This document shows positions 4,840 through 58,238 of a stretch of DNA of 64,000 bases, in pieces; position 1 is the first letter of the stretch; each line of letters opens with the position of its first letter. The notes under the pieces are model-generated. The model worked only from the letters and a program-made list of their open reading frames with translations. It did not search any database and had not been told where the DNA came from. The position numbers and the translations under genes are program-made. The stretch lies in the IMG/VR virus record IMGVR_UViG_3300020445_000892, positions 1 to 64,000 of that record, one strand, 5' to 3'. The DNA is from a virus.

Positions 4840-5379
4840 ATGTCAGTCTTAAATGTATTAGATACTCAGACAGTGAGTGGTTCAGGAACTGCATACATTG
4901 TGGTCAAGTCTGGTGTAGTTCGTGCTTACGCTGCATCTGCATCTTCAATACAATTCGATGCTGGTCCTGCTGTAACTCTCGCTGCTGGAGAAGCAATTCT
5001 CCTCTCCGTTGGAAAGTCAAAGAACGTATCAATAACTGGTGCTTCAGATGCTGCTACCTGTGTATTCACAGTTGGTGGTGTAGGTGCTGGTCAACGTCAT
5101 AACTTTGCAGTAGGAGATTACATTCAAACTATAGATGGTGGTGACACCGATGGATTTGTTGCAGCATTTGAAACTGCTGCTTCTGCTGGAAAGAAAGTCA
5201 CTGCTGTTACAAACACCACAGTAACAACTGATTACGATTCATCTTCTGCTTCTGCAGCATATGCAATCAGTGAAGCAGATGTTATTGCAAACAACGTTCC
5301 TCAACTTCAAAGAACAGTGAAACTCACTGCAGGATCTGCTGATGTTGTAGTTGAGCAAGTACAAATTGTTGGTGGCTAA
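4840..5379 (+). CDS. Beta-rich putative virion protein
   Basis: A 179-residue Ala/Val/Ser/Thr-rich protein without membrane segments or catalytic motifs that I recognise. Its composition (AYIVVKSGVVRAYAASASS, then alternating hydrophobic strands) resembles decoration or adhesin-like beta proteins. It has its own late-type promoter at 4807 and an AAGGA ribosome site 10 bases before the ATG. The stop overlaps the next ATG. A structural role is inferred from promoter type and composition only. Confidence 0.6.
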   Translation: MSVLNVLDTQTVSGSGTAYIVVKSGVVRAYAASASSIQFDAGPAVTLAAGEAILLSVGKSKNVSITGASDAATCVFTVGGVGAGQRHNFAVGDYIQTIDGGDTDGFVAAFETAASAGKKVTAVTNTTVTTDYDSSSASAAYAISEADVIANNVPQLQRTVKLTAGSADVVVEQVQIVGG

Positions 5380-6035
5380 TGGAAACTACTGGTCAAACCG
5401 ATCCTGTATTAAAGAAGAAAAAGCAGTTGTTAGATAAGAAGCAACTACAGTTAAATCTTCGTAAGATACAACTTCAACGCAAAACAGTTCAAGCTGGAGG
5501 TGAAACCGATATGCGTACAGAGAAACGTGTAATGTCCTTTAAGCAGTTCATAGCTGAAGGTGGATTGGCACGTGCTATCAGTAAATCTAATACAAAGGTT
5601 ACTGGACACATCAGTGCTGACAGGGGTTCTGACGAAAAGAAGAACCGTGAGAAACGTAAAGGATTAGAGAAAGACCTTAAGAAGAAGGGTATTGGATATA
5701 AGAAGGGAGTGGGACAGTACAAGTATGACGATGGGAAAACTGGCACAGAGGTGTCCTACCATACGTCAAAACCTGATAAAATGTCTAAGCGACGCTTTGG
5801 TAAGCTAAGTCGTAGGCTCGGTCGTAAACACGGTCAAGAGTCTGTTATTACAAAAGATAAAGACAAATCTGCCAAATTACATTATACTGATAAGAGTGGT
5901 AAGAAATCCGAGTCTCTCGGTAAGACAAAAGCTGGTAAGCATCCTGGTGGATATGGTGAAACATCTTCTACCAACGTGCGATCTGGTAAACTACCCAAAA
6001 AGGTCAAAGACCAAAAACTACACTATGACAAATAA
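5379..6035 (+). CDS. Very basic protein with prohead-targeting-like motif
   Basis: The long frame gives 218 residues, rich in Lys, Arg, Gly and Ser. Residues 52-61 read MSFKQFIAEG, closely like the MKTYQEFIAEA head of T4 internal proteins IPI-IPIII, a capsid-targeting sequence cut by gp21 after (I/L)xE. Cleavage would fall after Glu60. A second start at 5511 (Met45), preceded by GGAGG at 5496-5500, would put this motif near the N-terminus; the start at 5379 overlaps the previous stop. The rest (for example KKKGIGYKKGVGQYKYDDG) is a basic, probably DNA-contacting body. I infer a head-internal protein packed with the genome. Confidence 0.65.
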   Translation: METTGQTDPVLKKKKQLLDKKQLQLNLRKIQLQRKTVQAGGETDMRTEKRVMSFKQFIAEGGLARAISKSNTKVTGHISADRGSDEKKNREKRKGLEKDLKKKGIGYKKGVGQYKYDDGKTGTEVSYHTSKPDKMSKRRFGKLSRRLGRKHGQESVITKDKDKSAKLHYTDKSGKKSESLGKTKAGKHPGGYGETSSTNVRSGKLPKKVKDQKLHYDK

Positions 6036-7673: not shown

Positions 7674-7757
7674 ATGGTCTGGGTTATCCGTCTATACGTA
7701 TGGACGGCTATTTTTATTGGATTAGTAAATCTTTCAACCTTCGCATATATAGAATGA
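7674..7757 (+). CDS. Possible 27-residue hydrophobic peptide
   Basis: ATG 7674 opens MVWVIRLYVWTAIFIGLVNL and stops at 7757, sharing ATGA with an in-frame ATG (7754) of the next membrane protein. Its hydrophobic character and coupling suggest a membrane peptide, but a frame this short may be chance. Confidence 0.3.
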   Translation: MVWVIRLYVWTAIFIGLVNLSTFAYIE

Positions 7758-7894
7758 TAGTCTGGTCGGTAATTTGGATGGTTGGAATCCTTATCGTAGC
7801 GGTAGGGGTGGTTCTCGTATACATATTTCAGTACGATAATTGGTATCCTAATTATGGGCAAGATGACACCACCAAGCAGAAAGAGCTGCTATAA
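7700..7894 (+). CDS. Small membrane protein
   Basis: The frame from 7700 gives 64 residues; an internal ATG at 7754 gives 46 and is coupled by ATGA to the preceding peptide. Residues about 19-42 are one strong membrane helix (MIVWSVIWMVGILIVAVG), followed by a polar tail (YDNWYPNYGQDD). No ribosome site decides between the starts. The 3' end overlaps the thermonuclease gene by 41 bases. Confidence 0.5.
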   Translation: MDGYFYWISKSFNLRIYRMIVWSVIWMVGILIVAVGVVLVYIFQYDNWYPNYGQDDTTKQKELL

Positions 7895-8399: not shown

Positions 8400-8402
8400 T
8401 TT

Positions 8403-10052: not shown

Positions 10053-10064
10053 AACAGAGGGAAT

Positions 10065-10072
10065 CATAAATA
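10065..10072 (+). promoter_or_regulatory. Late promoter-like octamer CATAAATA
   Basis: Seven of eight match to TATAAATA, 43 bases before the gp18 ATG, which has AAGGAG at about 10100. It would drive gp18 and gp19. Confidence 0.65.
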
Positions 10073-10115
10073 ATTTCAAGACTAATTGATAGAATTTTTC
10101 AAGGAGATTTAAACA

Positions 10116-15293: not shown

Positions 15294-15509
15294 ATGCCTA
15301 GCATTCCAGCTACTGAAATTGTTGACAAACTGTTTTCCGATAAAAAGGATTTAAGCGGTGAAGTTAATGATGCAATGATGGCACTCTCTCAAGATGCTCT
15401 AGATCAGAGAAGACAAGAGATTGCAAAAGATTGGTTAAAAGATTCTGAACCTGAAACTGAAGTAACACCAGAGGAGACACCTAATGAAACTGATAACGGA
15501 ACAGATTGA
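15294..15509 (+). CDS. gp67: gp67-like prohead core protein
   Basis: A 71-residue protein located between gp20 and gp21, the place of gene 67 in T4. It resembles T4 gp67 in a helical region followed by an acidic tail: EIAKDWLKDSEPETE aligns with T4 ARNFLIEGEEPEDE. gp67 is a minor scaffold component that is destroyed by gp21. It overlaps the gp21 start by 26 bases. Confidence 0.75.
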   Translation: MPSIPATEIVDKLFSDKKDLSGEVNDAMMALSQDALDQRRQEIAKDWLKDSEPETEVTPEETPNETDNGTD

Positions 15510-16137
15510 AGACATTCAAGTACTTGAAGAGAGTACAAAGAGTGGTAAGAAAAATCTGTATATCGAAGGCACGTTTCTCCAAGGCGAGATTAAAAATCGC
15601 AATGGAAGGATGTATCCTATGGCTACTCTCCGAAGAGAAGTTGGTAAATACAACGAAAGCTTCGTTAAGTCAGGTAGAGCACTTGGAGAACTCGGTCACC
15701 CCGAAGGTCCAACAGTTAACCTAGATAGAGTATCTCATCTAATCACATCTTTGCAAGAAGATGGAACAAACTTCAAAGGAAGAGCACGTATCCTTGAGAC
15801 CCCTATGGGTAACATTGCTAGGTCTCTTTTAGGAGAAGGAGTCAAATTAGGGGTATCCTCACGCGGGATTGGATCCCTAAGAAGGACTAGTGAAGGTGTA
15901 AATGTTGTCGCTGATGACTTTATGCTTGCCACTGCTGCTGATATTGTGGCAGATCCCAGTGCACCAGACGCTTTTGTGTCTGGAATAATGGAAGGAAAGG
16001 AGTGGGTCTGGGAGAATAATCTTCTCAAAGAACGTGAACTCCGCACAATTAAGCAAGGTTTGGACAATGCTCCAAACGCAAAAGTAATCGAAGAGATGAA
16101 AGTTTCCGCATTCGCAAAACTTATGAACTCTCTATAG
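15484..16137 (+). CDS. gp21: gp21 prohead maturation protease
   Basis: A 217-residue protein of the herpesvirus-type serine protease family. LYIEGTFLQGEIKNRNGR matches the T4 region LYIEGIFMQAEVVNRNKR. His72 in ELGHPEG and Ser125/126 in GVSSRGIGSL are the catalytic residues. It cuts scaffold, gp23 and internal proteins after (I/L)xE. This matters because several late proteins in the window carry that motif. T4 gp21 has 212 residues. Confidence 0.96.
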   Translation: MKLITEQIEDIQVLEESTKSGKKNLYIEGTFLQGEIKNRNGRMYPMATLRREVGKYNESFVKSGRALGELGHPEGPTVNLDRVSHLITSLQEDGTNFKGRARILETPMGNIARSLLGEGVKLGVSSRGIGSLRRTSEGVNVVADDFMLATAADIVADPSAPDAFVSGIMEGKEWVWENNLLKERELRTIKQGLDNAPNAKVIEEMKVSAFAKLMNSL

Positions 16138-16192: not shown

Positions 16193-17188
16193 ATGTCGGA
16201 TGAAACAGTAAAGGCATCTGAAGAACAAACCCAAGAGGTCACCGAAGCTAAGTTCGACGGTGCCGTTGCTGATGGTTCTTCACTCGGATCAGTCGAAGTT
16301 CTCGGTGGACCTACACCTCAGAACTCAAAGCCTGATGATGAGAGCAACAAGATTAAGACACCAACTCAGACTCAAGCGTCTGCACCTAAGACAAAACCAT
16401 CTGCTGCAAGCAGCAAGAAGGCTGAGTCTGTAGAAGCAGAGAATGCTGATGGTGAACAGTTAATCGAGATCGATGTATCTCAAGATGTTGCAGCATTAAC
16501 CGAAGGAGAAGAACTCTCCGAAGAGTTCAAGACTAAAGCAGCAACAATCTTCGAAGCTGCAGTCGTCTCTCGCCTCAATGAGGAACTTGAGAAAGTACAC
16601 GAAGAGTACACCAAGTCCTTAACAGAGGAAATCCAAATTGTTAAGACTGAATTGGCCGAGAAGGTCGATGAATATCTAACCTATGCAGTTCAAGGTTGGA
16701 TGGACAATAACAAACTCGCAGTTGATACTGGTCTCAAAGCAGAGATCGCTGAGAGTGTTGTAGACGGTCTTAAAAAAGTTTTCGTCGAGAACCATATTGA
16801 GGTTCCCGAAGAAAAGGCAGATGTTCTTCAATCGATGGCATCTGAACTTGATTCAATGGAAGCAAAACTCAACGAGCAAATTGAAAAGAATGTAAGCCTC
16901 AACTCTACAGTTGCAGGTTTCGTTAAGAATGGGATTGTGAGCGAGGTTTCTGAGGGACTAGCATCTACCGAAAAGGAGAAGCTAGCATCTTTATCAGAAG
17001 GGGTTGAGTTTGAAGATGAAGAGTCATTCCGCAGCAAGGTAGAAACTCTGAAGGAGTCGTACTTCTCCAGCAAGCCAGCGAAAGCTGACAGTGAAACCGT
17101 TGCAGAAGACGTACAACCAGTTGTGGACAGCGAAATCACAGAGTCTATGTCACGTTACGTAGATGCTCTGAAGCGTTTCAAAGCCTAA
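16193..17188 (+). CDS. gp22: gp22 major prohead scaffold
   Basis: A 331-residue, highly charged, helical protein between gp21 and gp23. The first 100 residues are polar and low-complexity, and residues about 110-290 are long coiled-coil (EELEKVHEEYTKSLTEEIQ and onward). T4 gp22 has 269 residues. It forms the inner core around which gp23 assembles and is then digested by gp21. A GGAG ribosome site precedes the ATG. Assignment rests on position and composition. Confidence 0.9.
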   Translation: MSDETVKASEEQTQEVTEAKFDGAVADGSSLGSVEVLGGPTPQNSKPDDESNKIKTPTQTQASAPKTKPSAASSKKAESVEAENADGEQLIEIDVSQDVAALTEGEELSEEFKTKAATIFEAAVVSRLNEELEKVHEEYTKSLTEEIQIVKTELAEKVDEYLTYAVQGWMDNNKLAVDTGLKAEIAESVVDGLKKVFVENHIEVPEEKADVLQSMASELDSMEAKLNEQIEKNVSLNSTVAGFVKNGIVSEVSEGLASTEKEKLASLSEGVEFEDEESFRSKVETLKESYFSSKPAKADSETVAEDVQPVVDSEITESMSRYVDALKRFKA

Positions 17189-17233: not shown

Positions 17234-18592
17234 ATGTTCAATTCTGAACAGTTGCAGGAAAAGTGGAACCCCGTACTTGATTGTGATGGACTTGATAGTA
17301 TCAAGGACAATTACAAGAAAGCGGTCACCGCAGTCCTGCTCGAAAACCAAGAAAAATTTTTAAGAGAAGAAGCTGGAGTTCTTACAGAAGCAGCTCCAAC
17401 AGTTAGCACAGCATCAACCTCATCCGTTGCAGGTTTCAGTGCCACCGCTACTGCCACAGGTCCAAGTGCAGGTTTCGATCCTGTTCTCATTAGCTTGATC
17501 AGAAGGTCAATGCCTAAGCTTATTGCTTATGACATTGCTGGTGTTCAGCCAATGACTGGTCCTACTGGACTTATCTTCGCAATGCGTTCACGTTACGGTA
17601 CTAACCGTACTGCTGGAACTGAAGCATTCTTCAATGAAGCAGATTCAGAGTTCTCTGCAGAGAACGCAGCAAGTGATCTAGGTAGAACAGCACAGTCTGG
17701 ATCTAACCCAGGATTACTTAACGACAGTGGTACTTACAATACCTCAACAGGTATGACTACTGCCGAGTCAGAAGCATTAGGTGATGCTGCTGGCAACCAG
17801 TTCGCTGAGATGAACTTCAGTATTGAGAAAGTTACTGTGACTGCTAAGTCCAGAGCCCTCAAAGCTGAGTACTCACTAGAACTAGCTCAAGACCTCAAAG
17901 CCGTTCACGGTTTAGACGCTGAGTCAGAACTAGCAAACATCCTCTCAACAGAGGTTCTTGCTGAGATCAACAGAGAAGTTGTTCGTACTGTATACAAGGT
18001 TGCAAGACCTGGTTCTCAGAACAACACAGCAACTGCTGGTATCTTCGACTTAGACGTTGACTCCAACGGTAGATGGTCAGTTGAAAAGTTCAAAGGTTTA
18101 CTTTTCAACATTGAAAGAGATATGAACGCCATCGGGCACGAAACTCGTCGTGGAAAGGGGAACATACTAATATGTTCTGCTGACGTTGCTTCTGCACTAT
18201 CAATGGCTGGTGTACTAGATTACACACCTGCTCTTTCTGGAAACAGCAATCTACTTCCTGATGACAACAGCAGCACACTTGCTGGTACTCTTAACGGAAG
18301 AATCAAGGTTTATGTTGACCCTTACTCTGCAAACGTAAGTGACAGACACTTCTACGTCGCAGGTTACAAAGGTGGTTCTGCATATGATGCTGGTTTATTC
18401 TACTGCCCATACGTTCCTCTACAGATGGTTCGTGCGGTTGGTCAGGATACATTCCAACCAAAAATTGGCTTTAAGACCAGATATGGTCTAGTTGCTAACC
18501 CATTCGCTGAGGGTACTACTCAAGGTGAAGGTGCACTTACTGCCAATGCAAACCGCTACTACAGACGTAGTTTGGTTGACAACCTAATGTAA
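17234..18592 (+). CDS. gp23: gp23 major capsid protein
   Basis: A 452-residue HK97-fold capsid protein. The segment IRRSMPKLIAYDIAGVQPM matches T4 VRRAIPNLIAFDICGVQPM. Residues 49-56 read GVLTEAAP, matching the T4 site FLTE|AEIG, so gp21 should cut after Glu53. The N-terminal propeptide is then lost. A strong AAGGAG site precedes the ATG. The gene ends at a strong terminator, the usual end of the head operon. Confidence 0.98.
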   Translation: MFNSEQLQEKWNPVLDCDGLDSIKDNYKKAVTAVLLENQEKFLREEAGVLTEAAPTVSTASTSSVAGFSATATATGPSAGFDPVLISLIRRSMPKLIAYDIAGVQPMTGPTGLIFAMRSRYGTNRTAGTEAFFNEADSEFSAENAASDLGRTAQSGSNPGLLNDSGTYNTSTGMTTAESEALGDAAGNQFAEMNFSIEKVTVTAKSRALKAEYSLELAQDLKAVHGLDAESELANILSTEVLAEINREVVRTVYKVARPGSQNNTATAGIFDLDVDSNGRWSVEKFKGLLFNIERDMNAIGHETRRGKGNILICSADVASALSMAGVLDYTPALSGNSNLLPDDNSSTLAGTLNGRIKVYVDPYSANVSDRHFYVAGYKGGSAYDAGLFYCPYVPLQMVRAVGQDTFQPKIGFKTRYGLVANPFAEGTTQGEGALTANANRYYRRSLVDNLM

Positions 18593-18851: not shown

Positions 18852-19005
18852 ATTAGACAAAGTAGCAATGACAAATAGATTAATGCAACTCAAAAGAGAG
18901 TTGGATTATAAGTGTGAAATAGGAGAGAAAGGAGAATGGGAATGCGTTGGTGCTAACCAAACTCTTAATAGAGTGTTTGATGTTTTAGACGAGTATTGGC
19001 AGTGA
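18841..19005 (+). CDS. 54-residue conserved-type protein
   Basis: Starts MNGRLDKVAMTNRLMQLKREL and has two Cys (in YKCEIGEKGEWECVG) between two amphipathic helices. It is the same size as the preceding gene and coupled to it. The stop overlaps the next late promoter. Function unknown. Confidence 0.7.
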   Translation: MNGRLDKVAMTNRLMQLKRELDYKCEIGEKGEWECVGANQTLNRVFDVLDEYWQ

Positions 19006-19012
19006 CTAAATA
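19005..19012 (+). promoter_or_regulatory. Late promoter-like octamer ACTAAATA
   Basis: Lies 30 bases before the structural gene at 19043 and overlaps the preceding stop. Confidence 0.6.
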
Positions 19013-19042
19013 GTGGTACGAAGCTGACCACTAATATAGTAA

Positions 19043-19612
19043 ATGTCTTTCACTAGTCAAATCTCAAATAGGAATTTCTTATCACCAGGTGGTTTCCGTT
19101 TCGTGCTGGCAAAGTTTCCCAAGGTGGCATACTTTGCACAGTCTGCTAATGTACCAGAAATGTCCGTTAGTTTGGTAGATCAACCAACTCCCTATCGTAG
19201 TATCAATTTAGAAGGCACCGTATCCTACGGTGAATTTAGTCTAACCTTCTTGGTTGATGAAAATATGGAAAACTTTCTCATACTTCATAACTGGATGAGA
19301 GCATTGGGTGTACCAGATAACTTTAAAGAGAGACAAGACTTCATAGAGAATCAACCTATGAATCTTAAAACTAACTACGGTAAGTCTCTAGGTGATCTCA
19401 GGTATGCTGATGGTACTCTAGCAATTTTAAATTCAAATTTCCAACCACTATATAATGTGAACTTCAAAGACTTAAAACCAACTGCACTAAGTACTTTGGA
19501 ATTTGATGCTACATTATCTGACCAGGAATACTTCCAAGCAAGTGTTTCATTTGATTATACATCATACGAGATACAATCACTGGAAGGCACTCGTAAAACT
19601 AACTTGAATTAA
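19043..19612 (+). CDS. Tail structural protein, gp3 position
   Basis: A 189-residue protein with FLSPGGFRFVLAKFPKVAYF, then NVPEMSVSLVDQPTPYRSIN and LEGTVSYGEFSLTFLVDENMENF. This strand order, ending in a second half about FDATLSDQEYFQASVSFDYT, is that of the tail-tube/baseplate fold of the gp19/gp54 group. Its place between gp23 and uvsY is where gene 3 (tail completion) is annotated in relatives. I am confident it is a tail component but not which T4 gene it equals. Confidence 0.65.
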   Translation: MSFTSQISNRNFLSPGGFRFVLAKFPKVAYFAQSANVPEMSVSLVDQPTPYRSINLEGTVSYGEFSLTFLVDENMENFLILHNWMRALGVPDNFKERQDFIENQPMNLKTNYGKSLGDLRYADGTLAILNSNFQPLYNVNFKDLKPTALSTLEFDATLSDQEYFQASVSFDYTSYEIQSLEGTRKTNLN

Positions 19613-22243: not shown

Positions 22244-22720
22244 ATGGTGGCGAGAAAAAATACCAAAAATCAACATTACGTCGATAACCAAAAGTTCCTA
22301 AAGGCAATAGTGGCTTATCGTGACAAGGTTGAATTGGCTAAAATTAGGGACAAAAAGAAACCTAGGATAGATGAATACATAGGTGATTGCTTTTTAAAGA
22401 TAGCAACACATTTGTCTTATCGTCCTAACTTTATCAACTATATGTACAAGGAGGATATGATCTCAGACGGTGTAGAGAACTGTGTACAGTACATAGATAA
22501 CTTCGACCCTGCTAAGTCTAAGAACCCCTTCGCATATTTTACACAGATAGTATACTATGCCTTCCTAAGAAGAATTGCTAAAGAGAAAAGACAGATGGAT
22601 ATAAAGGATAAGATTATAGAGAAGAGTGGATTCGATCAAGTATTCCATTCAGATGATCCTTCTGCTAATGCAGAACTTAGTGGCATCAAGTCACGTATTG
22701 AAATGAACACTCGCTATTAA
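22244..22720 (+). CDS. gp55: gp55 late sigma factor
   Basis: About 158 residues. It aligns with T4 gp55 in the N-terminal YVDNQKFLKAIVAYRD (T4 YVNNKELLQAIIDWKT), in DMISDGVENCVQYIDNFDPAKSKNPFAY (T4 [28 protein letters not shown]) and in FLRRIAKEKRQ. gp55 is the highly reduced sigma that reads TATAAATA late promoters with gp33 and the gp45 clamp. ATGs at 22235 and 22244 are both possible and neither has a clear ribosome site; 22244 fits the T4 N-terminus better. It lies behind a strong host-type promoter, as expected for a switch gene. Confidence 0.95.
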   Translation: MVARKNTKNQHYVDNQKFLKAIVAYRDKVELAKIRDKKKPRIDEYIGDCFLKIATHLSYRPNFINYMYKEDMISDGVENCVQYIDNFDPAKSKNPFAYFTQIVYYAFLRRIAKEKRQMDIKDKIIEKSGFDQVFHSDDPSANAELSGIKSRIEMNTRY

Positions 22721-22722
22721 CT

Positions 22723-22794
22723 ATGTGGTACACTTTATTTTGGACGGTGATTATTATGTACGCACTTATAAGACTGGGGGTCTTTAGAAAATGA
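22723..22794 (+). CDS. 23-residue membrane peptide
   Basis: ATG 22723 opens MWYTLFWTVIIMYALIRLG, almost entirely one membrane helix with a basic end (RK). Its stop shares ATGA with the next gene. Coupling on both sides supports a real gene, though the size leaves doubt. Confidence 0.4.
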   Translation: MWYTLFWTVIIMYALIRLGVFRK

Positions 22795-22970
22795 GACTAA
22801 CCCAAGCAGTTATTGACAAGATTGCAGTTGCAATGCAACATACCAAGAAGGATGGAACTGTCAATTGGAAAGACGGTGATGAGATTGATGTGTGTCTTGG
22901 TGGCACATTTGCAGGAGATAAGTTTATCTCTATCATAAACAGAACACGTAGCAACACTACTAAACGATGA
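22791..22970 (+). CDS. 59-residue protein of unknown function
   Basis: Starts MRLTQAVIDKIAVAMQHTKK and continues with a beta-like half (DGDEIDVCLGGTFAGDKFI) and a basic end. It is coupled by ATGA on both sides. No domain recognised. Confidence 0.6.
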   Translation: MRLTQAVIDKIAVAMQHTKKDGTVNWKDGDEIDVCLGGTFAGDKFISIINRTRSNTTKR

Positions 22971-23242
22971 GTGAATTTCATATTGATATTGATAAGGCAC
23001 TAGAGAATGCCAAGAAGACAGACCTTAATGGATTTGCAAAGAATACATATCCTGATGGTCTGGGATCTGTTAGAGCAGCAGTAGAGAATGCTGAAATGTT
23101 ATGTGGATTAGATAAGAATACTATGCAAGAACTACTTAAAGGTGAGTGGACACAGTTGACTACTTCCAACTCAACTGGTAGAATGTCTAAGAAGATTGTA
23201 ATCGAGTATGACATCAAACAAAAAACTGCTGCTGATAACTGA
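22967..23242 (+). CDS. 91-residue protein upstream of gp47
   Basis: An acidic, helical protein (DIDKALENAKKTDLNGFAKN). Its last 35 bases overlap gp47 in another frame, so the two are coupled. No family recognised; operon position suggests early expression. Confidence 0.65.
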   Translation: MSEFHIDIDKALENAKKTDLNGFAKNTYPDGLGSVRAAVENAEMLCGLDKNTMQELLKGEWTQLTTSNSTGRMSKKIVIEYDIKQKTAADN

Positions 23243-24266
23243 TCAGCACTTTGGTGTACGCAACGACAATCAAGTATTCATAGAGAAGTACAGGGAGTTC
23301 TATACCAATACAGTCATCCCATATATCAAGAGACATAAGATCACAACTGTGATGTGTCTTGGTGATTCATTTGATAAGAGAAAGGCTATAAATTTTTTGT
23401 CGCTTGAATCTGCTAGAGAGATGTGGTTCGATCCTCTCAAAGAGATGGGTGTCCAGATGCATATGTTGATAGGCAATCACGACATATACTATAAGAACAC
23501 ACTTAAAATTAATTCACCTCAGCACCTCCTAGGTGAGTATGACAATATAAAAATCTACACAGAACCAGAAGAGATTGAAGTTGAAGGTGTTAGAATATTA
23601 ATGCTGCCTTGGATTTGTGACGATAATAGAAAGCAAATAGATCAGATGGTTGAAGAGTCAGATGCACCAGTATGCTTTGGACATCTAGAACTAACAGGAT
23701 TCGAAGCTATACCAGGTAGGTTTATGGAGCACGGTGATGATCCATCACCTTATAATAAGTTTAAGTTATGCTGCTCAGGACACTTCCATATGAAGTCAAA
23801 GCAAGGTAACATCAACTATCTCGGCAATCCGTACCAATTATACTGGAATGATTACGGTCAGAGAAGAGGGTTCCATACACTAAATACTGATACACTTAAC
23901 TTAACATTTCATCTTAACCCTTATCAAATCTTTAACAAATTATATTATGATGATGTTCAGAAGGACTATGAAACCTTACCTGACTTCACTAAGTTAAAGG
24001 GATCTTATGTAAAGGTAATCGTACAGAATAGAGAGAACCAAGTATGGTTTGATCGCTATATTAAATCACTTCAAGATAGTGATGTTGCTGATCTAAAAAT
24101 CATTGAGGATCTATCATTGGATATGGTTGATGTGGATGAAAATCTTGAGACAGAAGATACGATTACTATCTTAGAGAATTATGTACAGGACTTGGAAGAT
24201 TCTATAGACAAGACTAACGTAGTGAATATTTTGAAATCGTTGTACACGGAAGCACTCAATCTTTAA
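23208..24266 (+). CDS. gp47: gp47 recombination nuclease subunit (SbcD/Mre11-like)
   Basis: A 352-residue calcineurin-type phosphoesterase. Metal-binding motifs are DQHFG at residues 12-16, GDSFDKRK about 52-59, GNHD near 88-91, GHLE and GHFHMK. T4 gp47 has 339 residues. With gp46 it resects double-strand ends and degrades host DNA. The Mre11-like subunit precedes gp46, separated only by an 85-residue protein. Confidence 0.96.
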   Translation: MTSNKKLLLITDQHFGVRNDNQVFIEKYREFYTNTVIPYIKRHKITTVMCLGDSFDKRKAINFLSLESAREMWFDPLKEMGVQMHMLIGNHDIYYKNTLKINSPQHLLGEYDNIKIYTEPEEIEVEGVRILMLPWICDDNRKQIDQMVEESDAPVCFGHLELTGFEAIPGRFMEHGDDPSPYNKFKLCCSGHFHMKSKQGNINYLGNPYQLYWNDYGQRRGFHTLNTDTLNLTFHLNPYQIFNKLYYDDVQKDYETLPDFTKLKGSYVKVIVQNRENQVWFDRYIKSLQDSDVADLKIIEDLSLDMVDVDENLETEDTITILENYVQDLEDSIDKTNVVNILKSLYTEALNL

Positions 24267-24523
24267 TGTTCATATTGTTGGATAAATCAACTGGAGGAGT
24301 ATATGCAGTCACTGATAAAGGTGGAAATAAAGTGGTGCAAATTTTTGTTGACAAAGATGACGCAGTGCGTTATTATGGTATGCTAGAAGCAGTTGACTAT
24401 AAACGTCCACTGGAAGTGACTGAAGTAGAAGAGGACATTGTTATAGACAACTGTTCTGTTCACAACTACAACTACGCTTTTATCAATCCTGAAGATCTTG
24501 TTATTCCTCCTCTGTCATTATGA
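24266..24523 (+). CDS. Small protein between gp47 and gp46
   Basis: An 85-residue protein. The N-terminal half (FILLDKSTGGVYAVTDKGG, then VQIFVDKDDAVRYY) looks like an alpha-beta domain of about 60 residues, and an acidic strand follows. It is coupled by TAATG to gp47 and by 4 bases to gp46, where T4 has other small genes (46.1, 46.2). Function unknown. Confidence 0.7.
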   Translation: MFILLDKSTGGVYAVTDKGGNKVVQIFVDKDDAVRYYGMLEAVDYKRPLEVTEVEEDIVIDNCSVHNYNYAFINPEDLVIPPLSL

Positions 24524-26238
24524 TCACATTTGAGAAGATTCGTTGGAGAAACTTCTTAAGTACAGGCAACCAATTCACTGAGATTAATTTCACCCAAACT
24601 AGTTCCACTCTTGTTATTGGATCTAACGGTGCAGGTAAATCTACTATGTTGGATGCTCTGTGCTTTGGATTGTTTAACAAACCTTTCAGGAAGATCACAA
24701 AGTCACAGTTAGTTAATACAATCAACGAGAGAGATACTTTAGTTGAGATAGAATTTAAAGTAGGTACAATAGATTATAAGGTAGTACGTGGAATTAAACC
24801 AGCTGTATTTGAGATGTATCGTAATGATACTCTGATAGATCAGGATGCTGCTAATAGAGACTACCAGAAATACCTTGAGCAAAGTATATTAAAATTAAAC
24901 TTTAAGTCATTTACACAGGTGGTCATACTAGGGAGTAGTACGTTTGTTCCCTTTATGCAATTAGGTGCTAGTCATAGAAGAGAAGTTATTGAAGATCTAT
25001 TGGACATACAAATCTTTTCCCATATGAATATGCTCCTGAAGGAGCGTGTAAAGGATAACAATGAGATACTTCGTGATTGCAAGCACGAACTAGAAATGGC
25101 TACTGCTGCTATCAAAGCACAGGAGAAGACATTATCAAAACTTACTATCGTTAATGATGAGAGAATTGCTCATCAGAAGGAAAGGTTTGATAACAATGAA
25201 GAACGAATGAAGACTCTAAAAGAAGAGATCGAAGAGTTTCAAAAGAAGATTAACAAACTCGTTAACAGCACTACAAAGTTAAAGACAAAGGAAGAAGAAT
25301 ATAAAAAGACCTTTGGTATACTGAGTAAGTTGAACGGAAGACAGGAGAGAGTTGTTAAAGATATTAAATTCTTTGACGATAATTCATCTTGTCCTGTATG
25401 TACTCAGGAGATTGAAGAGAAATTTAGACAGGTCAAAGTTAAAACTTTAAACGAAAAGGTTGATGAATTAAATGAAGCAGCAGGTACTCTAGAGAAACAA
25501 GTACAGAAGACACTTCAAACGATTGAGAAATTAAGAGAGGATAGTTCTAATGTAACTGAATATCAATTTGAAATTCGTCGTTTAGTAAACGAAGAACAGA
25601 AGTTGATGAAACAGAATACTGATATTTTATCTCAGATCAAAAATTTAACTGATGAATCAGACCTTAATAAGGAACAGTTACTACTGGAGAAATTACAACA
25701 AGATTATAATGATAAGGAGACTGCTTGTTCAGGTGTCAGTAAAGAAGCACAGGACTATAAGTTAGTCAGTAATCTTTTAAAGGATGGTGGTATCAAGGCA
25801 AAAATTATTTCTAAGTATATTCCTATCATCAATCAGAGGATCAATAGATATCTTACATCAATGGATACCTATATTAATTTTACTTTGAATGAAGAGTTTG
25901 GTGAGGTTATTAAGTCACGTCATCGTGATAAGTTCTCTTACTCATCCTTCTCTGAAGGTGAGAAGCAGAAGATTGACCTATCACTTCTCTTTACTTGGAG
26001 ACACGTTGCTAAATTAAAGAACTCTATCATTACAAATCTATTAATACTTGATGAAGTATTTGATAGTTCACTAGATAATACAGCAACAGAAGAATTACTT
26101 AAGATTCTTAAAGAGTTATATACTGATACTAATATGTTTATCATCTCCCATAAGGGTGATGTACTCCTAGACAAGTTTGATAGAACTATCAAGTTTGAAA
26201 AGGTTAATGAGTTCTCAAAGGTATTTGAAGATGTTTGA
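24520..26238 (+). CDS. gp46: gp46 recombination ATPase (SbcC/Rad50-like)
   Basis: A 572-residue ABC-type ATPase, T4 gp46 being 560. Walker A GSNGAGKS is at 34-41, two coiled-coil arms flank the zinc hook CPVC at 291-294, the signature FSEGEKQKIDLSL is near 480, and Walker B LLILDEVFD with the switch His in ISHKG follow. It forms the nuclease complex with gp47. Its last 8 bases overlap an oxygenase-like gene. Confidence 0.97.
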   Translation: MITFEKIRWRNFLSTGNQFTEINFTQTSSTLVIGSNGAGKSTMLDALCFGLFNKPFRKITKSQLVNTINERDTLVEIEFKVGTIDYKVVRGIKPAVFEMYRNDTLIDQDAANRDYQKYLEQSILKLNFKSFTQVVILGSSTFVPFMQLGASHRREVIEDLLDIQIFSHMNMLLKERVKDNNEILRDCKHELEMATAAIKAQEKTLSKLTIVNDERIAHQKERFDNNEERMKTLKEEIEEFQKKINKLVNSTTKLKTKEEEYKKTFGILSKLNGRQERVVKDIKFFDDNSSCPVCTQEIEEKFRQVKVKTLNEKVDELNEAAGTLEKQVQKTLQTIEKLREDSSNVTEYQFEIRRLVNEEQKLMKQNTDILSQIKNLTDESDLNKEQLLLEKLQQDYNDKETACSGVSKEAQDYKLVSNLLKDGGIKAKIISKYIPIINQRINRYLTSMDTYINFTLNEEFGEVIKSRHRDKFSYSSFSEGEKQKIDLSLLFTWRHVAKLKNSIITNLLILDEVFDSSLDNTATEELLKILKELYTDTNMFIISHKGDVLLDKFDRTIKFEKVNEFSKVFEDV

Positions 26239-52119: not shown

Positions 52120-53316
52120 ATGGCTACTAAGAACACCCATCTCGAACACTTAGAAGATGACATCCTAAACCAAGGTTCCAAGGGTGGTAAGAATGCTATT
52201 GCTTTCCTGAAAGAACTAGGAAAGATGTTGACAGAACCCAAGAGTGCTATTACTGTCACTACTAAATGGGATGGAGCACCTGCTATTGTATGTGGTATCA
52301 ATCCTGAGAATGATAATTTCTTTGTGGGAACTAAATCAGTATTCAATAAGACCAATCCTAAGATCATATATGTTGAGAGTGATATAGAATTCCACGGTTA
52401 TAGTGGTGAACTAGCAAAGAAATTAAAACTAGCATTGAAATATCTAAGTACACTTAAGATTAAGGGTGTACTACAGGGTGATATGTTATTCAGTAATGGT
52501 GATAAGGTTAGGAAGCAAATAGATGGTAAGTCTTGTATTGCTTTCACACCTAATACTATTACCTATTGTGTAGAGAAAGGATCTGATATCTATAAGGAAG
52601 TTAATGCTGCAGAGTTTGGTATTGTATTCCATACAAAATACAGTGGTTCTGATATGGCATCTATGAATGCAGTATTGGGTGATGTTAGTGGGAGTTTTAC
52701 TAAGACTGCTAAGGTATTCTCAGGTACTGCTACGTTCAAGGACGTGTCAGGACAGTCAACATTCACACCAAAAGAGAAGACTGCCTTCAATGCTCAGGTC
52801 AATAAGACACACGGATCATTGAAGCAAGCATCTAAGTTCTTAGATATACTTGCTGGCACAGGTGATGGTAGGTTTTTATTCTCTGCTCTATTCAAACAGT
52901 ACTTTAACTCTTATGTAAGAACAGGTAAACCAATTACTAACGTACAAAAAGTAGCAGCAGGATTTGAAGGGTTCTATGTCACGCTATTAGATAAGCAAAT
53001 TAATTCAGTTAAACAACCTACTACTAAAAAGAAATATCAAAAGATAAAAACAGACGGACAAAAGTTTTTAAAGCAGAATGCAAGGGCAGTTTATATGACT
53101 GTGGCATCCTATATGAACCTAATATCCGCAAAAAATATAGTTATTAAGAAACTTAATGCAGTAAAGAGCGTAGGCACCTATCTCAAGACTGACAAAGGGT
53201 TTAAGGTTACTTCTCCCGAAGGATTTGTGGCAATAAAATCAGGAAAAGCACTCAAACTTGTTGACCGAGTTGAATTTTCCCGTGCCAACTTCACAATAGA
53301 GAAGAACTGGGGGTGA
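52120..53316 (+). CDS. Nucleotidyltransferase/ligase-like protein
   Basis: A 398-residue protein. TTKWDGAP at 47-54 has the KxDG motif I of ATP-dependent DNA/RNA ligases and capping enzymes, K49 being the would-be adenylated Lys. GVLQGDMLF at 116-124 fits motif III, EGFV at 367-370 motif IV, and LKLVDR at 378-383 motif V. The spacing of motifs III to IV is unusually long, with a helical insert between. The family would join nucleic-acid ends or transfer nucleotides. No known T4 ligase (gp30, gp63, Rnl2) resembles it in overall sequence as far as I can tell. Confidence 0.6.
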   Translation: MATKNTHLEHLEDDILNQGSKGGKNAIAFLKELGKMLTEPKSAITVTTKWDGAPAIVCGINPENDNFFVGTKSVFNKTNPKIIYVESDIEFHGYSGELAKKLKLALKYLSTLKIKGVLQGDMLFSNGDKVRKQIDGKSCIAFTPNTITYCVEKGSDIYKEVNAAEFGIVFHTKYSGSDMASMNAVLGDVSGSFTKTAKVFSGTATFKDVSGQSTFTPKEKTAFNAQVNKTHGSLKQASKFLDILAGTGDGRFLFSALFKQYFNSYVRTGKPITNVQKVAAGFEGFYVTLLDKQINSVKQPTTKKKYQKIKTDGQKFLKQNARAVYMTVASYMNLISAKNIVIKKLNAVKSVGTYLKTDKGFKVTSPEGFVAIKSGKALKLVDRVEFSRANFTIEKNWG

Positions 53317-53322
53317 TAAATA
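53315..53322 (+). promoter_or_regulatory. Late promoter-like octamer GATAAATA
   Basis: Overlaps the preceding stop and lies 25 bases before the ATG at 53348, opening the late head-internal block. Confidence 0.65.
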
Positions 53323-53347
53323 ATAAACGACAACCAATTATATTGCG

Positions 53348-54562
53348 ATGAAGTTAAGTCAATTCTTATCTGAGGCACGTACTGTTGCAGGTGAAGCTGC
53401 AGCTAAAAGAGGACTTGCACACGCAGGTCACGGTTACTATGCTGACAGGGCAGGGAACATTGTTGCCAAGTCTGTTGGTGGTGAGCGTCTTGTAGCTGTA
53501 GATAAGAAAGAAGCAGAGCAAGCTACTGTAGGATCAGCACAAGGTGAGGCAGAAGATGCACATCTTCCTGAGAAAGGTGGTGAAGGTCTAGGACATATCG
53601 CATTAACATTTGGTCGTTTTAATCCTCCTACTATTGGACACGAAGCACTCTTAGATAAGGTTGCATCTGAAGGTGCTGATAATTACAGGATCTATCCTAG
53701 TAGGACAGTGGATAGGAAATCTAATCCACTAGAACCAGAAACAAAGATTCAGTATATGCAATCGATGTTTAAAGAACATTCAGAAGCCATCGTTAACGAT
53801 GCTGATATGTCAAACATCTTTAACGTACTGTCTACTCTCAATCAAGAGGGTTATTCTGGTGTCACTATGGTTGTTGGTTCTGATCGTGTGTCAGAATTCA
53901 AAGGACTTCTTGAGAAATATAATGGTGTTGCATACGAATTCGAAGAACTCGAAGTAGTATCAGGTGGGCAGAGAGATCCCGATGCCGAAGGTGTTGAGGG
54001 TATGTCTGCATCTAAAATGCGTGCGTTTGCTGCTGAAGGAAACCTTGAATCATTTGAACAGGGGTTACCTAAAGGGTTTAGTGACGCTAAGAAATTAATG
54101 AAAGAAGTTCGTATTGGAATGGGTCTACCACCAGAGGTAGAAGTTGAAGCAATTGAAACTGAACCTAAGAAGAAAAAGGTTACAGAACTCTGGAAGATTG
54201 CACCTAAACTTGCTCAAGAAGATTTGCGTGAAGCATATATATCAGAGCAGGTATTCAGTATCGGTACTTTAGTAGAGCATACAGATACTGGTGTCCGTGG
54301 TGAAGTGGTACAACGTGGAACTAACTACGCTACCTTTAAAGATGAGCACGGATGGGAATTTAAAGTATGGTTAACTAGTTTAACAGAAGTTGCAGATGCT
54401 TCAATCAAAAGAGATGACCAATCAAACTTCTCTGCTGATGATGGATCAGGCAACACTTGGAAAGTCGGTACTGATGAGTATAGACAAGCAGTTCAAGCAC
54501 TAACACCTGGTCAAGGTGTAGTGAAGTTCAGTCATTTCCGAAAACAAACCCCTACTAAATAG
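53348..54562 (+). CDS. Head-targeted NMNAT-fold protein
   Basis: A 404-residue protein. The N-terminus MKLSQFLSEARTV resembles T4 prohead-targeting sequences with a gp21 site after Glu9. Residues about 83-255 are a HxGH-type nucleotidyltransferase: FGRFNPPTIGHE at 88-99 and SASKMR at 220-225. A C-terminal domain at about 305-355 (SIGTLVEHTDTGVRGEVVQR) looks like a KOW/SH3 fold. The family makes dinucleotides such as NAD, so an enzyme carried in the head is possible. It has a late promoter. Confidence 0.7.
   Translation: MKLSQFLSEARTVAGEAAAKRGLAHAGHGYYADRAGNIVAKSVGGERLVAVDKKEAEQATVGSAQGEAEDAHLPEKGGEGLGHIALTFGRFNPPTIGHEALLDKVASEGADNYRIYPSRTVDRKSNPLEPETKIQYMQSMFKEHSEAIVNDADMSNIFNVLSTLNQEGYSGVTMVVGSDRVSEFKGLLEKYNGVAYEFEELEVVSGGQRDPDAEGVEGMSASKMRAFAAEGNLESFEQGLPKGFSDAKKLMKEVRIGMGLPPEVEVEAIETEPKKKKVTELWKIAPKLAQEDLREAYISEQVFSIGTLVEHTDTGVRGEVVQRGTNYATFKDEHGWEFKVWLTSLTEVADASIKRDDQSNFSADDGSGNTWKVGTDEYRQAVQALTPGQGVVKFSHFRKQTPTK
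54554..54561 (+). promoter_or_regulatory. Late promoter-like octamer ACTAAATA
   Basis: Overlaps the preceding stop, 22 bases before the ATG at 54584. Confidence 0.6.
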
Positions 54563-54583
54563 TAATTACAAAGAATTAGTCAG

Positions 54584-55975
54584 ATGGATTTAACTCTTAC
54601 GTCAAAACTCCTGAAGTATAGTCCTTCAGACGTACAAGCGGTACGTTATACAGTATCTTATGCCAAGAATAACTTTCAAGGTGATGCTGTGGATGATTAT
54701 ATTCAAGAGCACTGTAAGTCACGTGCCAAGTTGGAGATAGCAGAGATCTTTTTAGGTGAGACCTCCAATGCAAACACTATTAGTGCTAAGTCAAGTGCTG
54801 CCAGTGGTAAGATTGACAAGATCAAAGAGAAGCCATCGACTGAGGGATCTACTTCCCCTGCAATGAAGTCTATTGAAGCAAAAGGCGATGCAAAGAAAGT
54901 AGGATACAAAGGTGGACTAGAAGGTACTGGTACTAATGTTGTACAGAAAGAAGAGACCGACTGGATCGCTGATGTCGTAGAAGAATTAGGTGATGAGTTC
55001 GATGAGTTGACTGATGAGGATTTGGAGAATGTTATCCTCGAAGCACTAAGCGAACTAGACTCCGAAGAATTAATTACTGAGGCTTTAGATTCCTTTGAAG
55101 ATCTAGAGTTATTAACAGAAGCACCATCAAAGCATTCAGCATTCCCTAATGTTGCAGTGCAGAAACCTCAAAAGGAAAAGCCTGCACGTGATGCTGGTGC
55201 AATTGCTAAGAAGCGTTTATCAGATAAACAGGGATCTAAACCTGCTAAGTCAGATAAACCTAGCCGTATGGCTCGTCTTGGTAATGCTGCTAAGAGAGTA
55301 GGATCAGCCGTTAAGTCTGGTGCTAAATCAGTAGCTAAAGGTGCAGTTAAAGGTGCGGGTTATGCTACTGGTTTAGCACAACGTGCGGCTTCAACTACTA
55401 AGAAAGAGTTCTCTAAAGGTAGAGAGCGTGGTCTTAAAGGTAGTGGTGCGAAGAAGGCAGTTGCTTCTTCTTCAGGATCTGGATCTTCAGGATCTGGTGA
55501 CACTCCCACTTCAAACTTAGCGAAGACTTCTTCTACAACCACAACAACCACAACAACAGGTGGTGGCGGTGGTTCTGGTGAAACAAAACCCAAGAAAAAA
55601 TCTCTATTACGTCGTGCTGCAGGTGCGATAGGTAGAGGTCTCAAAAAGGTCGTGGGTAAAACCTCACGTGCTGTTTCTAAGGGTTCCGATAAACTAGCAA
55701 GGAAACTTGGAGAAGACTCCACTATGGAAAACAAAGTACAACGTGTTCGTCAGATACTTGCGATGCAAGAAACTGCTGCTCACGATAAGAGATCACTAGA
55801 TGCTAATGCTAACTCTTGGAGAGAGCGTCTTGGTTGGGACTTAGAAGAAGAGAAGACTCCTGAGCAAAAGAAGAAGTCTGATGTTCTTAAGCAAACCAAA
55901 GATCTTACAAACAAAGGTAAGCACAAAGAAGCATCTGCTTTATTCAAAAAACATTTCCCTAACTTTGGTAAATAA
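54584..55975 (+). CDS. Histone-like head-internal protein with gp21 cleavage sites
   Basis: A 463-residue protein. An N-terminal helical domain (1-60) leads to an acidic stretch (123-179) with three matches to (I/L)xE|A: after Glu153, Glu166 and Glu179. The part that would remain is strongly basic, with Lys/Ala/Gly repeats at about 218-305 (GSAVKSGAKSVAKGAVKG), a Thr/Gly linker, and another basic region (LLRRAAGAIGRGLKKVVGKT). This resembles a histone H1 tail. A polar domain ends in FKKHFPNFGK. I infer it is processed in the prohead and binds the packaged DNA. Confidence 0.65.
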   Translation: MDLTLTSKLLKYSPSDVQAVRYTVSYAKNNFQGDAVDDYIQEHCKSRAKLEIAEIFLGETSNANTISAKSSAASGKIDKIKEKPSTEGSTSPAMKSIEAKGDAKKVGYKGGLEGTGTNVVQKEETDWIADVVEELGDEFDELTDEDLENVILEALSELDSEELITEALDSFEDLELLTEAPSKHSAFPNVAVQKPQKEKPARDAGAIAKKRLSDKQGSKPAKSDKPSRMARLGNAAKRVGSAVKSGAKSVAKGAVKGAGYATGLAQRAASTTKKEFSKGRERGLKGSGAKKAVASSSGSGSSGSGDTPTSNLAKTSSTTTTTTTTGGGGGSGETKPKKKSLLRRAAGAIGRGLKKVVGKTSRAVSKGSDKLARKLGEDSTMENKVQRVRQILAMQETAAHDKRSLDANANSWRERLGWDLEEEKTPEQKKKSDVLKQTKDLTNKGKHKEASALFKKHFPNFGK

Positions 55976-55977
55976 CT

Positions 55978-56430
55978 ATGGCTAAAAAGGTGAAGGGTAA
56001 AAAAACCACCGTAATTGTTAACCCCAAAAAGGACGATCTAATGAAAGAGGACATCAAAAGATTACTTCGTAGTGAAGTTGATAGTTTGCGTGAAGCAGCT
56101 AAGAAGAAGCTCGATCCTGTAGGGAAGGAAGACAAGGACATCGATAACGATGGTGACAAGGACAACTCTGACACATATCTTCTAAACAAAAGGAAGAAGA
56201 TAACTAAAAGTGTCACAGGTAAAACACCCAAGCACCTTTGTGCTAAGTATGTCGAACATAAAGAGTTCGGTGTATGCGAGACCATTCCTGGTGCTCACGA
56301 TCTAGTGGAGCAAGAGGATGGATCTTATAAAGTATTTCATTATGACCTCAAGGATGAGTCAGGTAACCTTTATGAGGACGTATCTATTGAGGACTTCGAA
56401 GTACTAGTAGAGATGGAGCACGCTCACTAA
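55978..56430 (+). CDS. Protein with EF-hand-like calcium loop
   Basis: A 150-residue protein. Residues about 50-70 read DKDIDNDGDKDNSDTY, a D-x-D-x-D-G-D pattern like EF-hand or dockerin calcium loops. Before it is a basic segment, after it a domain with two Cys (LCAKYVEH, GVCETIP) and an acidic end. It is coupled to its neighbours with overlaps of 1-3 bases. It is probably a minor structural protein of the same late unit. Confidence 0.6.
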   Translation: MAKKVKGKKTTVIVNPKKDDLMKEDIKRLLRSEVDSLREAAKKKLDPVGKEDKDIDNDGDKDNSDTYLLNKRKKITKSVTGKTPKHLCAKYVEHKEFGVCETIPGAHDLVEQEDGSYKVFHYDLKDESGNLYEDVSIEDFEVLVEMEHAH

Positions 56431-58238
56431 TGAAAAGTTTTAAATCCTTTAATGAAGCTGTTGCTAACAAGAAGCAAGCTGATGCTATAGCACAAGCAAA
56501 GTTAGATCGTAAGTCTGCACTTAAAGTTAAGTCTGTTAAGTACAGAAAAGAGAACACTCAGGTTGGTGACCCTAACTCTAGTGCACCTGAACAGAATTTC
56601 TCTGAAGCTAAGGTAGATGCTGGTAAATCTCCTGAAACAAAAGAGAAGGATAGGAACGTACGTAAGTTTGGTGTAAGCCATAACGTATCAGGTCACGGTA
56701 AACTAAGAAGATCTCTTCATAGGATGAACCGTGGAGATAAAAAGATACCTGGTGATAAGTCTAAATGGATGGAGATGGAAGGGAAGGATTACGGTATCAC
56801 TAGGGGAGATGGTAAACCAAAGGGTGTTATGAAAGCATACCTTGATGCCAAAGCAAAGAAATTAAGTAAAGAAAAGGCAGCACAAAAGCCTGAGTATAGA
56901 AACAACCCTGCATTTGGTGATCCATCACATCATTCAAACAGAAAGAACATTAAAGAATTTGTAGGAACAACTATAGCTGGAACTGCTGGAGCAGCGACTG
57001 CAAAGAAAGGTGATAAGGTTCGTAAGGCAGTTGGTTCTGGTGCAGGATATGCAGTAGGTTCCACAGCTGGTCGTGCAGCTGGTGGTGCAGTTGGTCAAGC
57101 AGTAGGTAGAGCAACGGTTCCTATTGTTGGTGGTGCAGTTGGTAAACAGGTAGGTAAAGTAATTGGTGGTACTGCAGGCGGTGTAGCAGGTGCTGTTGCA
57201 GGTAACAAGTTAGCTGGTACATCAAAGAAGAAGGTAAAGGAAGAGGTAGAATTAACTGAAGCTCCTGGAGTTAGTACAGCTATATCTCAAGGTATTAAAC
57301 AAGGTGGTAAGTGGGCTGTTCGTCAAGGTATCAGAGCTGGTGGTAAACAAGGTGGTTACGCTGTAAAGAAAGCAGGTAAATATGCAGGACAAGCTGCTAA
57401 AGAAACTGCTGTTGAATATGGTAAAGGAGCACTTAAAGGTGCTAAAGATAGAGCTGGTAAAGCAGGTGAACGTCACGCAAAGAATTTAAGTTTGCCACAA
57501 AGAAAGCAACTGGAGCAACAGACAGAAGGTCTTGCTACTGCAGGTGGATTAACTTATAAAAAGTCTGAAAAACCAGGTAAATTTGAAAAAGCAGGTAGAG
57601 TTGTAGGTGGAATTGGTGGAAGTATAGGTGGAAGTATAGGTGGTGCTGCAGCTGCAGGTGCTGCAGGTAGTGTCGTACCTGTTGCAGGTACTGCTGCAGG
57701 TGGAATAGCAGGAGGAATTGCAGGAGGAGTTGCTGGTGATATAGCTGGCACAAGAACTGGTGGTTCTATAGGTCAAAAAATTGATAAATTAACAGGTGGA
57801 AACAAGAAACCAGTTGCTAAGAAGACTACTGCAGTTACTAAAGAGTCTAAAGACATTGCAGATATACTTGCAAGACTAGAGAAGAAACGTATCAGTAAGG
57901 GTGGAGACGCAAAGGACTCACCACTACCTGCGTTCCGTAAGTATCACGCTGACAAAGATAAGAAGAAGAAAGAAGTAAAAGAAGATGTGATAGGTGAAGA
58001 AGGTTACGATCACTGGAGAGACAAACAACTTGAGAAGTATGGTACTGGGTGGAGATCTAATGACAGACCTAGACCATCATCAGGTGGTGGAAAGCACAGT
58101 GGTAACGATAAGATGACCAAGAAGAAGAACTCTGACAAGGCATTGGACAGTGTAGTAAGTGACCTCAAGAAAAAATATGGGGACAAAGCTGTGCTAGTAT
58201 CAAAGAGAAAGTACAGAGGAGGCAAGAGAGTACAATGA
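56430..58238 (+). CDS. Glycine-zipper protein with prohead-type sites
   Basis: A 602-residue protein. MKSFKSFNEAVAN resembles a prohead-targeting sequence. Residues about 177-262 and 388-440 are two Gly/Ala-rich zipper regions (GYAVGSTAGRAAGGAVGQAVG; GGIGGSIGGSIGGAAAAG) able to insert in membranes. Between them lies ELTEAPG (274-280), the same LTE|A site as gp23, with cleavage after Glu277. The C-terminus is basic and polar. Zipper regions are seen in ejected phage proteins, so an injected channel protein is my inference. Confidence 0.6.
   Translation: MKSFKSFNEAVANKKQADAIAQAKLDRKSALKVKSVKYRKENTQVGDPNSSAPEQNFSEAKVDAGKSPETKEKDRNVRKFGVSHNVSGHGKLRRSLHRMNRGDKKIPGDKSKWMEMEGKDYGITRGDGKPKGVMKAYLDAKAKKLSKEKAAQKPEYRNNPAFGDPSHHSNRKNIKEFVGTTIAGTAGAATAKKGDKVRKAVGSGAGYAVGSTAGRAAGGAVGQAVGRATVPIVGGAVGKQVGKVIGGTAGGVAGAVAGNKLAGTSKKKVKEEVELTEAPGVSTAISQGIKQGGKWAVRQGIRAGGKQGGYAVKKAGKYAGQAAKETAVEYGKGALKGAKDRAGKAGERHAKNLSLPQRKQLEQQTEGLATAGGLTYKKSEKPGKFEKAGRVVGGIGGSIGGSIGGAAAAGAAGSVVPVAGTAAGGIAGGIAGGVAGDIAGTRTGGSIGQKIDKLTGGNKKPVAKKTTAVTKESKDIADILARLEKKRISKGGDAKDSPLPAFRKYHADKDKKKKEVKEDVIGEEGYDHWRDKQLEKYGTGWRSNDRPRPSSGGGKHSGNDKMTKKKNSDKALDSVVSDLKKKYGDKAVLVSKRKYRGGKRVQ

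Follow-up and report, generated by a model that had tools for sequence, protein, structure and literature searches.

The closest described counterpart of the peptide treated here is the capsid-targeting sequence (CTS) of the T4 internal proteins IPII and IPIII (MKTYQEFIAE↓A, the arrow here and below marking a known or candidate cut by the prohead protease gp21). Mutants of the IPIII CTS showed that residues 4 and 7 direct targeting and residues 8 and 10 direct gp21 processing, and that an aspartate at position 10 blocks cutting and leaves targeting intact (PMC9026906). The same paper raised the idea that a range of proteins can be loaded by T4-like phages by means of CTSs (PMC9026906). T4 Alt, a head-packaged and ejected ADP-ribosyltransferase, is a second point of comparison, as an enzyme that is carried in the head and acts on the host at once. 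In cyanophages, NMNAT-like proteins were reported in the virions of S-SM1 (PMC3037559), S-CREM2 (PMC10665884), S-SCSM1 (PMC9602691) and S-SZBM1 (PMC9146016), as well as of S-CBWM1 according to a citation in PMC9602691. The papers reporting such proteins and kinases in cyanophage particles suggest injection, give no mechanism and leave carry-over open.

Here we analysed 64 kb (the window) of the virus record IMGVR_UViG_3300020445_000892, whose full length is 73,555 bases, and focused on an NMNAT-like protein whose N-terminal tag is probably a cyanophage capsid-targeting and cleavage peptide of the T4 type. No paper linking CTSs to cyanophages was found among the open-access papers searched, most subscription papers lying outside that search.

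The tag of the NMNAT-like protein

The features on which the comparison rests are the following.
53348..54562, + strand: NMNAT-like or cytidylyltransferase-like open reading frame (ORF), 404 residues (PHROG 395, E = 6.6e-85; Pfam CTP_transf_like above cutoff; adenylyltransferase fold)
53348..53377, + strand: CTS-like tag MKLSQFLSE↓A of this protein (homologue conservation, profile rank)
53378..53500, + strand: second module behind the tag, GL..AGHGYYADR.GNIVAKS..G.L (common to unrelated cyanophage proteins; predicted local distance difference test score, pLDDT, of about 90 in the structure model)
53594..54121, + strand: catalytic adenylyltransferase domain, residues 83-258, with FGRFNPPTIGH and SASKMR (alignment, structure model, fold comparison)
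15484..16137, + strand: gp21, the prohead protease that presumably does the cutting (Pfam Peptidase_S77, E = 6.5e-35)
16193..17188, + strand: gp22 scaffold, the presumed docking core (identified from its position between gp21 and gp23)
17381..17392, + strand: propeptide site LTE52↓A of gp23 (gp23 by Pfam PF07068, E = 6e-147)

A preliminary description of this DNA, made from its letters, had pointed to FLSE↓A at the N-terminus of the NMNAT-like protein, and the translation indeed starts with MKLSQFLSEA (E9↓A10). The count of [IL]xEA motifs in this ORF is borderline (2 seen against 0.41 expected, p = 0.06 in residue shuffles), so that the case rests on the position and the conservation of the tag. 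All 77 complete NMNAT-like homologues found on IMG/VR contigs have an F-(L/I)-x-E-A tag directly after the start codon, the single exception in the survey of 78 contigs being a homologue truncated by a contig end; some of these contigs are close relatives, and they are thus not fully independent. Among divergent homologues (16, then 34), F6 and E9 are the sole invariant columns before residue 88 and the catalytic core, and A10 is kept in at least 90% of the aligned sequences. The catalytic FGRF motif lies 33-126 residues from the start across the IMG/VR homologues, which shows that the tag is conserved and its neighbourhood is not. A profile trained without the window sequence ranked the window tag first among 1,042 start codons. 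Judged at the level of sequence, the tag is far beyond chance.

The preliminary description had also likened such N-termini to the targeting sequences of T4 internal proteins, a likeness that holds at the conserved positions for the NMNAT-like protein. Its tag has the hallmarks of a CTS, namely about 10 N-terminal residues with hydrophobic or aromatic residues at 4 and 7, I/L at 8 and E at 10, and the conserved F/Y/L, F, L/I and E of the cyanophage tags coincide with positions 4, 7, 8 and 10 of the IPIII CTS. The tag in the window is shorter by one residue and has L at the first hydrophobic position. When every possible T4 start codon was scanned with a profile built from 11 cyanophage NMNAT-like N-termini alone, hence without any T4 sequence, IPIII and IPII ranked 5th and 6th of 2,426; they ranked 3rd and 4th with a profile from 55 tag sequences. 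Similarly, the pattern [FY]xxF[LIV]xE[AGS] occurs at six places in the six frames of T4, and three of these places coincide with the propeptide sites of IPII, IPIII and gp23. Alt (MELITELFDED) and IPI (MKTFKEFTSTTTPVSTITE↓A) are outside the top T4 matches, indicating that the tag profile is limited to sequences of the IPII/IPIII type.

The likeness to the T4 CTS thus extends to length, position, residues 4/7/8/10 and the E↓A junction, to the presence of gp21 and a gp22-like scaffold, and to a portability between unrelated proteins. In contrast, the present tag is found in cyanophages (relatives of the Kyanoviridae) and on enzymes rather than only on small basic proteins; it is universal on one core enzyme; a second shared module often comes after it; and it is internal in one family, described below, in which cutting by the cyanophage protease would have to occur within the chain. 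Compared with Alt, the enzyme is a different one and the Alt N-terminus is not picked up by the profile.

Two T4 frames deserve mention in their own right. The best T4 match to the tag profile is a 76-residue frame located where uvsW ends (3' end; NC_000866, 114210-114440, + strand), which starts with MLLEFKQFLYEAS and has no separate gene annotation in that record; we take it to be uvsW.1, and from its sequence it is a candidate internal protein. T4 gene 61.1 (18966-19130 of the record, - strand) starts with MKTFKEFIKED, which is CTS-like with D after the glutamate.

The window encodes a T4-like set gp20-gp21-gp22-gp23, in which gp21 and gp23 were identified by Pfam, whereas gp20 and gp22 were assigned from where they lie and from their sequences. 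The gp22 candidate has eight [ILVF]xE[ASG] sites, an excess over chance (p = 0.009), and the propeptide site VLTE↓AAP previously noted in gp23 is present in the translation, with the presumed cut after E52. The gene order of the window, gp43-uvsX-gp41-MazG-DUF6267-NMNAT-like-variable ORFs-head proteins-gp61, is that of cyanophages and is also seen in P-SSM4, Syn19, P-RSM6 and S-SZBM1. With this conserved order, the window ORF is an orthologue of the virion-associated NMNAT-like or cytidylyltransferase proteins described earlier in cyanophages (T4-GC190, PHROG 395), for which the earlier papers gave no loading mechanism and the tag would supply one. The phrog_455 profile (764 positions) spans the DUF6267 and NMNAT-like ORFs in tandem (window 52120-54562), which hints that the two genes are fused in some relatives.

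As for the enzyme itself, the (H/T)xGH-type and SxSxxxR-type motifs of nucleotidyltransferases are conserved as FGRFNPPTIGH and SASKMR. A sequence search of the PDB gave no match for the protein, and the best Foldseek matches were split between PPAT and NadD. The model thus suggests an adenylyltransferase-like fold that does not separate NMNAT from PPAT; "NMNAT-like" is a label, and a role in nicotinamide adenine dinucleotide (NAD) metabolism is a guess. In S-SSM6a (around 4989-6374, + strand), the annotated start of the NMNAT-like gene is placed too far downstream: VKSFGQFLTEA, the tag, is encoded in frame ahead of it, behind a GTG.

Tagged proteins in virions of relatives and a second tag in the window

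The S-CREM2 proteome allows tags to be compared with particle content. All 6 coding sequences fitting a CTS-like regular expression were detected by mass spectrometry, versus 46 of the 212 others (p = 1.5e-4), an expression that was composed after some S-CREM2 proteins had been seen. For this reason the safer figure is that of a profile untrained on S-CREM2 and with the NMNAT-like protein left out, for which 5 of the top 6 proteins were detected (p = 0.003). Significance was lost with a relaxed N-terminal expression (6 of 14 matches detected, p = 0.10), and an expression allowed anywhere in the protein with a strict P1' residue retrieved the NMNAT-like protein only, which is not above chance (1 seen against 0.5 expected). 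In S-SM1 the NMNAT-like protein carries the only strong tag; the annotation of that genome has no virion-protein flags, which leaves S-CREM2 and S-SZBM1 as the full proteomes compared.

The tagged proteins of S-CREM2 include a kinase, an S-adenosylmethionine (SAM) lyase and a large protein annotated as Cas9, whose tag lies near residue 20. Pfam gave no match for the latter, the product of gene 12 (7704-10313, - strand; CRISPR-associated endonuclease Cas9 in the annotation), and this annotation looks doubtful. No relatives of the kinase or of the "Cas9" protein were found in IMG/VR. In S-CRM01, the tag, or a sequence close to it, opens five consecutive genes (g131, the kinase g130, g129, g128 with the tag at residue 19, and the NMNAT g127). 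Tags on unrelated proteins of a single phage are therefore found in S-CREM2, in S-CRM01 and in the window, where the NMNAT-like and a SAM-lyase ORF both carry one. The second module behind the tag is common to the NMNAT-like protein, the kinase, the "Cas9" protein and ACG-2014f gene 179, and small basic cyanophage proteins also carry the tag.

The second-best tag of the window, absent from the preliminary description, is located just upstream of a SAM-lyase domain.
5379..6035, + strand: SAM-lyase ORF (Pfam PF23780, E = 1.1e-8, above cutoff with 35.6 bits vs 28)
5538..5561, + strand: tag FKQFIAE↓G of this ORF (homologue conservation, profile)

This tag is internal if the ORF starts at 5379 and N-terminal if it starts at 5532 (ORF 5532-6035). 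It is kept in 46 of the 48 homologues read, always just before the lyase domain, although its distance from the start ranges between 4 and about 617 residues; such a variable depth with a constant place fits an internal gp21 junction. The ORF is homologous to the S-CREM2 virion protein ORF6 (E = 2e-15). Phage T3 SAMase is presumably a known relative of the PF23780 family. The T3 enzyme is made after infection, whereas the window ORF carries a gp21-type site and its family member ORF6 appears to be virion-borne in S-CREM2; the role of the T3 enzyme has been described (PMC8406200). Gene 194 of S-SZBM1 (23252-25375, - strand) encodes a 707-residue basic protein with a C-terminal SAM-lyase domain preceded by YREFIAE↓G, a sequence that suggests a polyprotein cut by gp21, and similar long forms are encoded on IMG/VR contigs.

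Other proteins of the block

The NMNAT-like gene is followed by ORFs that the preliminary description had grouped with it as a late block of proteins probably entering the prohead.
54584..55975, + strand: histone-like ORF, 463 residues, an acidic part followed by a basic part (translation; homologues)
55034..55045, + strand: candidate gp21 site 1 of the histone-like ORF, ILE153↓A (motif, homologues)
55073..55084, + strand: candidate gp21 site 2, ITE166↓A (motif; conserved in part only)
55112..55123, + strand: candidate gp21 site 3, LTE179↓A (motif; best conserved of the three)
55978..56430, + strand: small ORF of 150 residues with LRE39↓A, a doubtful member of the block (no Pfam match)
56430..58238, + strand: glycine-zipper ORF, 602 residues, N-terminus MKSFKSFNE↓A and LTE277↓AP (translation, homologues)
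53315..53322, + strand: GATAAATA, possible late promoter with one mismatch to TATAAATA (not beyond chance)

The three (I/L)xE↓A sites claimed for the acidic region of the histone-like protein are present in its translation, as is the LTE↓AP claimed for the middle of the glycine-zipper protein. These motifs may have arisen as by-products of an acidic, alanine-rich composition, with no gp21 cutting involved, and this is a serious possibility if not the favoured one. The glycine-zipper ORF agrees with it: its [IL]xEA count is not beyond chance (1 seen against 0.27 expected, p = 0.23 in shuffles), it has few relatives, and conservation of its sites is confined to the close ones, a homologue (L004) having LDET at 277; conserved L/I-x-E sites beyond chance are thus lacking. 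Its N-terminus MKSFKSFNEA (E9↓A10) falls one residue short of the CTS pattern. For the histone-like protein, site 2 varies and is kept in only part of the homologues, but sites 1 (phi-x-E↓A) and 3 (LTE↓A) persist in most of them, even where identity has dropped to about 35-50%, all three sites are present in the homologue from P-RSM6, and the number of motifs exceeds what composition predicts (3 seen against 0.41 expected, p = 0.007 in residue shuffles). The mostly conserved sites divide the acidic from the basic part. S-SZBM1_139, found at the same place, was detected in virions and is weakly similar only (BLASTP E 0.002). Motif counts being weak outside the histone-like ORF, they cannot alone carry a claim of cargo. 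Entry into the prohead is argued for strongly for the NMNAT-like protein (conserved T4 CTS positions, recovery of IPII and IPIII, orthologues in virions), moderately for the histone-like protein and weakly for the glycine-zipper protein.

The assertion that all these genes lie behind late promoters did not hold. Matches to TATAAATA with at most one mismatch are not enriched in the window (95 seen against 108 expected), and a universal late-promoter context was rejected. The NMNAT-like ORF is the only gene of the block preceded by such a site (GATAAATA at 53315), and the ORFs at 55978 and 56430 leave almost no gap to their upstream genes.

Proposed role of the tag and alternatives

Considering its presence, its conservation, the match to T4 CTS positions, its modularity and the agreement with published virion proteomes, we think it likely that the tag M-K-x-F-x-x-F-(L/I)-x-E↓A of NMNAT-like proteins (LSQFLSE↓A here) is a T4-type targeting and cleavage peptide for internal cargo of cyanophages. 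Several observations weigh against this reading. The virion evidence comes from proteomes of relatives of the window phage; that of S-CREM2 carries the hindsight noted above, and its authors leave open a carry-over of abundant proteins. In S-SZBM1, whose proteome lists only 30 proteins, the NMNAT-like protein was detected, the two other best-tagged proteins (191 and 192, both small) were undetected, and there was no enrichment. No report of a cut N-terminus was found in the literature for any cyanophage cargo. The homologue of the enzyme in Caulobacter phage Cr30 has no tag, and the S-N03 kinase has a degenerate N-terminus. Finally, the tag expression matched 21 non-NMNAT starts when every cyanophage locus read was taken together, against about 8 in shuffles (about 2.5-fold), meaning that part of the non-NMNAT list is due to chance.

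An improbable alternative is that the peptide serves docking only, targeting the protein to the prohead core and remaining uncut or being cut elsewhere, with E↓A kept for docking. Targeting and cutting are separable in T4, as the aspartate mutant at position 10 indicates, and S-CREM2 tags often lack A after E (EE, EF, EQ, ED); however, the invariant E and the largely conserved A of NMNAT-like proteins are as expected of a P1/P1' pair, and SAM-lyase tags retain E↓G even when internal. That the peptide is an ordinary conserved helix of the enzyme, serving folding or oligomerisation and having nothing to do with the head, with detection in virions due to carry-over of an abundant protein, is likewise improbable: its strict conservation in one family, the helix at residues 3-10 of the AlphaFold model and the carry-over mentioned by the S-CREM2 authors would suit such a helix, but the same peptide occurs on proteins dissimilar to the NMNAT-like protein and on T4 IPII and IPIII, residues 1-9 of the model have a pLDDT below 50, and the distance from tag to fold varies by about 90 residues.

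If the tag is a targeting and cleavage peptide, its hydrophobic residues 4 and 7 would dock the protein on the gp22 core of the prohead, and gp21 would cut after the glutamate and free the enzyme inside the head, from which it would leave with the DNA and enter the host at infection. The tag is portable, being carried also by other cyanophage proteins (SAM lyase, kinase, the large protein annotated as Cas9, small basic proteins), and its internal form in the SAM-lyase family would act as a cleavage junction within a longer chain. An NMNAT-like enzyme might benefit the phage through early NAD+ or nucleotide metabolism or through counter-defence, and a SAM lyase might lower SAM and blunt restriction or methylation. 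More tentatively, this one portable tag, either N-terminal or placed within the chain as a gp21 junction, could serve T4-like cyanophages to package and then eject an entire repertoire of effector enzymes (the NMNAT-like enzyme, the SAM lyase, the kinase and "Cas9"), which would so act on host NAD, SAM and signalling, hence on defences, before phage gene expression.

Such a tag would explain why these enzymes recur in purified cyanophage particles, would allow the virion cargo of these viruses, which are abundant in the ocean, to be predicted by a simple sequence rule and, together with the known genetics of T4, makes the question of injection directly testable.

CTS-like starts were also seen on proteins of other families. 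Two DUF6321 proteins start with MKTFKQYITEA (S-SZBM1, 22631-23125, - strand; absent from the S-SZBM1 proteome) and MKTYSQFIVEH (locus L096, 4775-5185, + strand). In Cr30 (9347-9667, + strand), a small protein starts with MKTFKQFFNES, followed by a YHGT motif, and resembles the catalytic domain of PARP weakly, with a score below the cutoff; its sequence makes it a possible tagged ADP-ribosyltransferase.

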